Part shown: positions 3,539-5,886 of the stretch, one piece after another
Numbering within the stretch: the stretch's first letter is position 1
Layout: every line of letters starts with the position of its first letter
Assembly (NCBI GenBank): GCA_030753015.1
Contig: JASMDC010000042.1
Span: forward strand, 25,342 to 31,258
Source: Candidatus Undinarchaeales archaeon
GTDB taxonomy: Archaea; SpSt-1190; JASMDC01
Direction of reading: 5' to 3'
Length of the DNA stretch: 5,917 nt
Program-made: the position numbers and the translations under genes
The notes under the pieces: model-generated
The model's input: the letters and a program-made list of their open reading frames with translations, nothing else
Database searches by the model: none
What the model was told of the DNA's origin: nothing

Positions 3539-4171
3539 ATGGAGGGACTAGCAGAACGACGCCCCGATGAGGGGCTGGCTCATTTCTGGACCATCAAGTC
3601 CCAGGTCCGTGCCGTCGGCATCGACGACGGTCCTTTCGAGAAGTACAAGCCGGGAACGTCCATGATAGTGGGCGCCGTGTGCCGGGGTGGGGGCTGGCTC
3701 GATGGCGTCATGCGCACGGACGTGGAGGTCGACGGTGACGATGCAGGGACCCGTATCGCCACTATGGTGAACGCCTCTCGGCACAAGGGACAGATCAGGG
3801 TCATCTTCCTCAACGGTATCACCTTCGGCGGGTTCAACACCGTTGACATCGCTCGGCTCAACCATGAAACAAACCTACCCGTCATCGTTGTCATGCGGCA
3901 TCGTCCGGACCGGGAGGGCATTCTCGTGGCACTTGAGAAGCTTCCTCACCAGGAACAGCGCGTCGCGGCCATGGCGCACGCCGGCCCAGTGCATGCTGCG
4001 TCGGGCGGGAAGGGCAAGTCCGTGTTCCTACAGGTCTGCGGCATCTCGCTCGAAGACGCCATGAAGGTAGTGCAGGTGACGTCCACGCGGAGCGTAGTGC
4101 CCGAGCCCCTGCGCCTGGCCCATCTCATCGCCTCGGGCGTCACGCTCGGTGATTCGCGGGGGGGTGCATGA
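3539..4171 (+). CDS. DUF99 / UPF0215 family protein (endonuclease V-like fold)
   Basis: This is a 210-residue archaeal protein of unknown function. Family signatures are VRAVGIDDGPF (residues 23-33), VIFLNGITFGGFNTVDI (88-104), LPVIVVMRHRPD (113-124), and the C-terminal PEPLRLAHLIASGVTLGDS-G. The family is known to share the RNase H-like fold of endonuclease V, and the aspartates of GIDDGPF sit where endonuclease V keeps a metal ligand; nuclease activity remains unproven. The first 20 or so residues before VRAVGIDD look longer than in usual members, but no later start codon fits. ATG 3539 lies 4 bases after GGAGG (3530-3534). The stop overlaps the primase start in ATGA, which indicates translational coupling. 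This places the protein in a replication operon and makes a nucleic-acid role plausible, by inference only. Confidence 0.9.
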   Translation: MEGLAERRPDEGLAHFWTIKSQVRAVGIDDGPFEKYKPGTSMIVGAVCRGGGWLDGVMRTDVEVDGDDAGTRIATMVNASRHKGQIRVIFLNGITFGGFNTVDIARLNHETNLPVIVVMRHRPDREGILVALEKLPHQEQRVAAMAHAGPVHAASGGKGKSVFLQVCGISLEDAMKVVQVTSTRSVVPEPLRLAHLIASGVTLGDSRGGA

Positions 4172-5886
4172 TGGCCGACGAGCTCTCTCCGATGGAGGTC
4201 GTGGAGTACTACTCGCGCGATGACATCGCACAGGAGATGGTGAACTCCGCTCAGGACCGCGAGGTCGGTGGGCGCTACCGTTCTGGCGGCTTCGGCAAGC
4301 GTCCCGACGTGCTCATGTACCCCGCGGACGTGAAGGCCATGGCCCGGAGCGGCATGACCTCGTTCCATTTCTCGGTTGAGCGCTGGCGCAATCCGAAGAT
4401 GCTCAGGCCCGGGATGGCGAAGAAGGAGCTGGACGCCCTCAGGACCGGATGGGACCTGCTGCTCGACTTCGATCCAAAGGACTTCATCCTGGGGAAGATC
4501 GTCGCTGAGAAGTTCATCGAAGTGCTCAAGCAGCTCAAGCTGCGCAACGTGAGCGTGAAGTTCTCGGGGAACAAAGGATGGCATATCGCCATACCCTTCG
4601 AGAGCTTCTCCGGTATCGAGTCCTACGATGGCAAGCTCATTCAAGCGCATTTCCCCGATGCCGTCCGGAGGATCTGCGAGTACCTCATGTACGAGAAGGT
4701 ATCACCTCGGAAGATGGACAAGAGCGGCGCGCATATATTCCAGAACGACCTCGTTGAGCAGTTCGAGGACCGGCTCACCGTCGAGGAGTACCGCGTTCTC
4801 TCCGGGGCGTACCTCTTCAAATGGGACGATATCCCCGGTGCCGGGGAAGAGCATCTCCGACGGTTCCTATCCACCGCCCCGTACAACCATCTCCACCTCG
4901 AACAGGCACCCATACACAAGAACACGACGGGCTCCATGATAACGCTCCAGTCCGCTTCCAGCTGGATCAAGTTCAGGCTCAGTGACGATCGACGGAAAGC
5001 GAGCCTTGAGACGAGCGACCGACGCTTCGCCAAACTAAGCGTGATGGAGGTAGAGGGGAGCGTCAACATCTACGCTGACTCGGACGTTGCATGGACGAAG
5101 GACAACCACATCGATCCTTTCAAGATAGTCGATGTCGATGCCCTCCTCATGACCAACAGGCATATGATCCGTATGCCCTATAGCCTGCACGAGTCGTCAT
5201 GGCTCGTGTCGGTCCCCCTCCCGTATGAACGCGGCGTCATCAACCTGTTCGACAAGGCATCGGCACTGCCTCATAACATGCGGGTGAACGAGACCTTTCT
5301 CAGCGAGCGCTCCACGGCGAACGACGCTCTTGAGCTCTTCGTCCGGGCATACAACTGGTCTGCAGAACGACATGGCAAAGAGGAGGAGAAGCTGCACGCC
5401 CTTTCCCAGGAGGCGCTCTCCAGGATCCCGAAGGACGCCATCCCCGTAGACCATTTCCCGCCGTGCGTGGGTCGAGCATTGGAAGGGCTTGAGGACGGAC
5501 GCAAGCGCATGGAGTTCATCCTCGAGGGTTTTCTCCGTAAGTCCGGGTGGGGATGGCCACAGGTCGAGGCCCAGCTCCTCGAGTGGGACGCCAGGAACAC
5601 ACCGCCCCTGGGCGAGGGCTACATCAAGCGCCACATCCGCTATGGCATGAACCGGGAGCGTGACGTCCTCCCTCCGAACTGTCGAAACACGACATTCTAT
5701 CAGGAGTCGGGACTATGCCGGTCCGACGCCATATGCAAGGGTATAAAAAACCCCATCAGTTATTCCCGCATCTCCCTGAAGCGGGCCAAGGGGAAGAAGA
5801 AAGATGGCCGAGAACGAGGAAAAGATAACGTACGACACGATAGTGAACAAGGAGCGTCAGGAGAAGAACAGCAAGCGCCTTCTTGA
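4168..5886 (+). CDS. Archaeo-eukaryotic DNA primase: PriS-type catalytic domain fused to PriL-type Fe-S C-terminal domain
   Basis: This 572-residue protein is predicted to make primers for DNA replication. Residues 1-360 form a PriS-like AEP domain. It has metal-binding D100 and D102 in DLLLDFDPK, nucleotide-binding SGNKGWH (133-139), and RMPYSLH (335-341), matching the 'RLPGSLHG' motif that follows the third catalytic Asp (candidates D322 or D324). Residues 390-428 look like a helical linker. Residues 429-535 resemble the PriL C-terminal domain, with FPPC (C433), LPPNC (C505), C517, C523, and KNPISYSR, the usual 'HPLSYYR' ending; the four Cys should hold a 4Fe-4S cluster. The PriL N-terminal domain and the PriS zinc cysteines seem absent. 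The tail, residues 537-572, is charged, low in complexity and overlaps GINS. Either of two adjacent ATGs (4168, 4171) may start it. Whether it replaces or supplements a separate PriS-PriL pair cannot be seen here. Confidence 0.85.
   Translation: MMADELSPMEVVEYYSRDDIAQEMVNSAQDREVGGRYRSGGFGKRPDVLMYPADVKAMARSGMTSFHFSVERWRNPKMLRPGMAKKELDALRTGWDLLLDFDPKDFILGKIVAEKFIEVLKQLKLRNVSVKFSGNKGWHIAIPFESFSGIESYDGKLIQAHFPDAVRRICEYLMYEKVSPRKMDKSGAHIFQNDLVEQFEDRLTVEEYRVLSGAYLFKWDDIPGAGEEHLRRFLSTAPYNHLHLEQAPIHKNTTGSMITLQSASSWIKFRLSDDRRKASLETSDRRFAKLSVMEVEGSVNIYADSDVAWTKDNHIDPFKIVDVDALLMTNRHMIRMPYSLHESSWLVSVPLPYERGVINLFDKASALPHNMRVNETFLSERSTANDALELFVRAYNWSAERHGKEEEKLHALSQEALSRIPKDAIPVDHFPPCVGRALEGLEDGRKRMEFILEGFLRKSGWGWPQVEAQLLEWDARNTPPLGEGYIKRHIRYGMNRERDVLPPNCRNTTFYQESGLCRSDAICKGIKNPISYSRISLKRAKGKKKDGRERGKDNVRHDSEQGASGEEQQAPS
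5742..5750 (+). promoter_or_regulatory. Candidate TATA box for the GINS gene inside the primase coding region
   Basis: TATAAAAAA is close to the ideal archaeal TATA box. Its centre predicts transcription from about 5773, roughly 31 bases before the GINS ATG. It also encodes Ile-Lys-Asn of the conserved primase motif, so protein constraint alone could explain it. Confidence 0.4.

Follow-up and report, generated by a model that had tools for sequence, protein, structure and literature searches.

The window, as we call the whole 5,917-nucleotide stretch analysed here, derives from contig JASMDC010000042.1 of a Candidatus Undinarchaeales genome (GCA_030753015.1). At positions 4168-5886 of its plus strand lies one uninterrupted open reading frame (ORF) of 572 amino acids, in which a PriS catalytic half is joined to a PriL Fe-S domain. 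The gene has the following parts:

4168-5886, plus strand: single-chain primase gene, 572 aa, recognised from its ORF, motifs, profile matches and whole-chain homologues.
4168-4692, plus strand: PriS catalytic domain, first part (aa 1-175), 35-46% identical to other archaeal fused primases.
4465-4473, plus strand: putative metal ligands D100 and D102, both invariant in all homologues covering them.
4564-4584, plus strand: S133GNKGWH139 motif, conserved in the alignment with homologous chains.
4693-4809, plus strand: variable helical spacer (aa 176-214), which differs widely in length among homologues.
4810-5079, plus strand: inserted 90-aa mobile domain (aa 215-304, YLFKWDDIPG...GSVNIYA), delimited by an independent profile, absence from homologues, paralogues in its own genome and predicted fold.
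5098-5292, plus strand: PriS catalytic domain, second part, with the RMPYSLH motif, placed by alignment with homologues.
5137-5139, plus strand: putative third metal ligand D324, where homologues show Asp or Glu.
5293-5439, plus strand: helical linker (about aa 376-424) standing where a PriL N-terminal domain would otherwise be, from the alignment of fused homologues, the helices being predicted with low confidence.
5440-5802, plus strand: PriL C-terminal Fe-S domain (aa 425-545), from NF003051 and NF002588 matches, PDB 9f26_B and conservation.
Within 5440-5802, plus strand: Fe-S cysteines C433, C505, C517 and C523, from sequence and conservation.
5803-5886, plus strand: unconserved C-terminal tail of about 27 residues (546-572), overlapping the next gene (ATG at 5804) out of frame.

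The third-position GC content (GC3) of the tail is 0.22, against 0.73-0.85 in the rest of the gene. The gene that starts at ATG 5804 possibly encodes GINS; the contig stops where the window stops.

A preliminary description of this DNA had read the ORF as a single-chain primase from a D100xD102 pair, SGNKGWH, RMPYSLH and four cysteines (433, 505, 517 and 523), all of which are indeed present; the motifs expected of an AEP-type enzyme, namely DxD, SGxxGxH and a third Asp, can all be found in the protein. When profiles were applied to the two halves, as had been proposed, the PriS half gave weak matches (PF01896, E = 1.3e-4; LigD_Prim-Pol, E = 5e-5) and the PriL half clear ones (NF003051, E = 9.5e-7; PriL of PDB 9f26_B, E = 1e-4). 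Homologues of the window protein were detected in 26 of the 61 archaeal genomes searched, most of them with strong scores (best E 1e-35 to 1e-50), and the strong matches form two collinear blocks, residues ~5-175 and ~311-550, with 33-46% identity to fused homologues per block. By motifs, profiles and whole-chain homologues, the reading as one chain with PriS and PriL C-terminal domains thus holds, as does the predicted lack of a PriL N-terminal domain, which is replaced by a helical linker of ~50 residues. The extents given for the domains fared less well: the PriS and PriL parts stand, but homology is confined to residues ~1-175 and ~311-545, between which an unrelated insert occupies residues 215-304. 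Nor can the primase be called minimal, as it had been, because a transposon-borne domain of 90 residues enlarges its catalytic half.

We considered whether priS and priL might have been joined by an assembly error, or whether the bin is chimeric. The genome has an estimated contamination of 5% (98.9% completeness) and, at 3.85 Mb, is far larger than those of nine class-mates (0.6-1.1 Mb). Against an artefact, homologous chains in other genomes share the layout, nearly all as one ORF, and GC content is similar across all loci taken (0.56-0.67). Since the same layout recurs in other genomes and no separate PriL is found in the window genome, we reject an assembly error as the source of the fusion, and an artefact of either kind is barely credible. 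The search for a separate PriL relied on NF003051, chosen because PF04104 misses even the window's own PriL domain in a genome search; NF003051 finds the window gene alone in this 98.9% complete genome. The search for separate genes that had been suggested therefore turned up no priL, but it did reveal a second PriS-like gene, P0002 (C54:5630-6964, minus strand, 445 aa; PF01896, E = 4e-8), located on the same contig. P0002 has no PriL partner and is absent from the class-mates, its nearest relative (31% identity) being found in G043, a member of another archaeal family. With this second gene present, the organism may have a primase besides the fused enzyme.

The fused architecture is already known and expected for the lineage, whereas the inserted domain is unexpected. 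According to published work, fused PriS-PriL proteins occur in every archaeon of DPANN Cluster 2 and in the Undinarchaeota (PMC7414124; Raymann 2014), and the fused primase of Nanoarchaeum equitans has, according to a citing paper, been characterised (Schneider 2023, cited in PMC12770985). All nine class-mates have a homologue of both halves. Like those proteins, the window protein is one polypeptide with a PriS half, a PriL C-terminal Fe-S half and no PriL N-terminal domain; unlike them, it carries a transposon-derived domain of 90 aa between motifs II and III, and its gene sits in a 3.85-Mb genome. According to PMC3973330, PolpTN2 of plasmid pTN2 also unites a PriS-like N-terminal domain with a PriL-like C-terminal one, but is a plasmid polymerase. 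By analogy with the family, the metal ligands and the Fe-S domain would have their usual roles in the window protein, which is presumably active as a primase. Among the fused homologues, all four Fe-S cysteines have been lost at four loci (L008, L009, L010 and L025) and some of them at four more (L012, L020, L022 and L023); homologues devoid of the ligands amount to a natural test of the need for the cluster in priming. L025 (G024:C2:4924-5709) also contains a tandem pair of PriL-CTD-like segments, with the PriS N-terminal part on a separate ORF of 248 aa.

In the alignment of fused chains, residues ~176-310 of the window protein are missing from the homologues or face a shorter, unrelated spacer, and residues 215-304 are absent from all fused homologues compared. 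A fused primase from another genome (L006, G047:C21) has a zinc-ribbon-like insert, CPSC...CPSC, at the same spacer. A domain profile built from other genomes finds residues 215-303 with E = 3.5e-17, with no match among 200 shuffled controls. AlphaFold2 predicts an independent domain (pLDDT 88.7, pTM 0.79) that also folds within the full-length model, which, built with no related primases supplied, is otherwise uninformative (mean pLDDT 52). The predicted fold had no significant Foldseek match in PDB or BFVD, and VIA-align gave only partial matches scattered over unrelated folds (best Z 4.7), so that we assign it to no fold and do not call it new; Pfam, NCBIfam and PHROGs contained no credible match to the insert, and we found no earlier description of the domain or of its element in open-licence papers. 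An intein or intein-like self-splicing element was also considered, given that the domain is inserted in frame into conserved proteins, replication enzymes included. The domain has only 90 residues, and the repeats described below fit another class of element, making this reading next to negligible. The intein was rejected on its junctions (G/A-Y-L-F ... N-I-Y-A), which lack an N-terminal Cys, Ser or Thr and a C-terminal His-Asn.

About ten further, unrelated proteins encoded in the window genome contain the same domain of ~90 residues; the profile finds it at eleven places there, the primase counted. It lies in the middle of its hosts, which include a HEAT-repeat protein, a PQQ propeller, secreted and membrane proteins, and a protein with a metallophosphoesterase-like GNHD motif. 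In a sample of 393 other archaeal genomes, the profile detected copies in 8. For a wider scan we used a degenerate DNA pattern for the start of the domain, YLFxWDxVPG, which matched at least 120 stretches in named genomes. Among the matches listed, nearly all come from Candidatus Methanoperedens, Methanophagales (ANME-1), ANME-2, Methanosarcina, Methanothrix and Altiarchaeota, with a few under bacterial titles; the viral contigs scanned with the same pattern gave no match. Fourteen of the matched genomes carry 1-29 copies each, and most full copies (114 of 147) have 40 or more host residues on either side. The host families range from TopoVI-B, Cas3, RadC and LonB to Cdc48 (between the AAA core and the lid), TraB/PrgY, an ion channel and transposases.

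Recent copies in Methanoperedens, ANME, Methanosarcina and Altiarchaeota genomes reveal the unit that moves. They measure 262 bp, are bounded by 14-bp inverted repeats, GTATWTGTTTAGCT, and have duplicated 8 bp of target on insertion. The 5' end reads GTATTTGTTTAGCT and the 3' end, reverse-complemented, GTATATGTTTAGCT, the consensus repeats being identical at 13 of 14 positions; the modal length of 262 bp comprises 261 bp, from TAT to TAC, and a leading G. Copies in unrelated genes are 77-85% identical at the DNA level over a region confined to ~265 bp, and the similarity between them ends within about 20 bp of the domain borders, mostly within 8 bp. A target duplication matching at 7 or more of its 8 positions was found in 18 of 127 copies, whereas 0.6 are expected and 1000 shuffles yielded at most 4. 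Each insertion adds 262 + 8 = 270 bp, or 90 codons, and the host frame is thereby kept. All 127 copies are open in one, and only one, common frame, as the search itself demands, and 92 of them are open in no other.

Mobility of the element family is apparent from nested copies and from empty and filled sites. In RadC of an Altarchaeum, an element flanked by an exact 9-bp repeat (L132) lies within an older one, which at another locus (L109) holds no nested copy; L117 is a second case of nesting, the nested copies having intact repeats, and a composite element occupies six sites. The latter belongs to an Altiarchaeales genome and consists of an IS1634 transposase with the domain. Its six copies share one outer end and are near-identical over ~1218 bp, and their flanks differ; because the contigs break inside the repeat, the far end is unseen. 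We found no domain-free copy. The simplest reading of these sequences is that the interrupted transposase would be active, although the composite may conceivably have been helped in trans by a related element. The spread of this domain-carrying transposase to six sites, when no copy free of the domain turned up, suggests that hosts can stay functional.

The 262-bp element itself encodes no transposase, and its repeats point to a partner. The 14-bp repeat was detected in 9 of the 10 genomes tested, with more than 50 occurrences in all and none for a reversed control. In ANME-1 GoMg2 (L228), GTATWTGTTTAGCT bounds an element of 1.54 kb with a 466-aa IS66 transposase (PF03050, E = 1.4e-34). The window genome contains an intact IS66 element of 1573 bp, whose transposase is assigned to IS66 by NF033517 (266 bits), whose ends, GTATTTGTTAAGCT and AGCTTAACAAGTAC, are near-identical to the repeats, and which is flanked by the 8-bp duplication CTCACGTA. 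The repeat also bounds short non-coding elements, for example one of 162 bp with the duplication GAAAAAAG (L230). Several families of such elements have GTATTTGTTTAGCT ends (loci L227-L244 of genome G395, among others L230; L206 and L221).

IS66 elements are known for 8-bp duplications and ends starting with GTAAGCG (PMC11946415). The domain element resembles them in its ends, which start with GTA, in its 8-bp duplication and in the IS66 transposase of the elements with matching repeats; it differs in lacking a transposase of its own, nearly its whole length coding for the host-fused domain, and in its ends, GTATTTG rather than GTAAGCG. The Rickettsia palindromic elements (Ogata 2000, 2002; PMC10969869) are a counterpart in kind only, likewise short, non-autonomous and inserted in frame in unrelated protein genes, each with a conserved peptide. 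Those elements are, however, ~150 bp long, against 262 bp encoding a folded domain of ~90 residues in archaea, and the domain element further differs from them in its clear inverted repeats, 8-bp duplications and identified IS66-type partner.

One could instead regard the domain as an ordinary adaptor, spread by recombination and gene fusion with no transposon involved. Many copies, including all those examined in the window genome, are too old for repeats, and some hosts contain several copies, as would suit an adaptor. Inverted repeats, 8-bp duplications, identity confined to the unit, nesting and matching IS66 elements all contradict this explanation, which we strongly disfavour and hold to be highly improbable.

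The primase copy is among those in which no inverted repeats and no target duplication are recognisable at either end: by inspection, the insert ends match the repeat at 8-9 of 14 positions and the flanking bases match each other at 3 of 8. Its repeats having decayed, the transposon origin of this copy rests on homology. The GC3 of the insert is 0.73, close to the 0.76-0.85 of its flanks. With drifted ends, no visible duplication and near-host third-position GC, the copy is, as far as its sequence tells, old and has been kept in frame. The retention of the reading frame and of the core motif, although the DNA drifted to the host composition, argues that the folded domain is under selection. 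This, together with the position between motifs II and III, where the L006 homologue has its zinc-ribbon-like insert, could mean that the insert is a functional accessory domain of the primase of this lineage, kept for a role such as standing in for the PriS small subdomain or making contact with the template or with partner proteins. Yet the presence of the domain in propellers, HEAT repeats, channels, transposases and membrane proteins, that is, in many unrelated hosts, speaks against a primase-specific role, and selection merely to stay folded would account for its retention. We consider an accessory role unlikely and infer that the protein tolerates the insert rather than uses it.

The gene thus very probably encodes a replicative primase of the fused PriS-PriL(CTD) type known from DPANN archaea, into whose catalytic domain a protein-coding miniature transposon inserted itself long ago. 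As deduced from the family, D100, D102 and D324 of the PriS half would hold two metals and join nucleotides, and the Fe-S domain, on its linker of ~50 residues, would hold the initiating nucleotide and the template. An IS66-family transposase would act in trans on the transposase-less 262-bp element and duplicate 8 bp of its target, as seen in related genomes, and presumably moved the primase copy in the same manner. The element being open through both repeats in one frame, insertion in that frame would add a self-folding domain and leave the gene unbroken; the site in the primase, a variable spacer between motifs II and III, would explain why the insertion was tolerated. The primase copy would later have lost its repeats and acquired the host composition while keeping the protein motif. 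It also seems likely that IS66-driven miniature transposons of archaea persist in essential genes by encoding a stand-alone fold in frame and serve as a genome-wide domain donor, having entered primase, TopoVI-B, Cdc48 and LonB without inactivating them.

Annotators should be aware that an unnamed domain of transposon origin is present in proteins of Methanoperedens, ANME and Altiarchaeota. More broadly, they describe a DNA transposon with a protein fold as its cargo, which lands inside coding sequences, those of essential enzymes included, and leaves a host protein that apparently works. How proteins tolerate, and possibly gain from, the abrupt insertion of a whole domain thereby becomes testable, and such elements would provide a natural route to new domain architectures in archaea.
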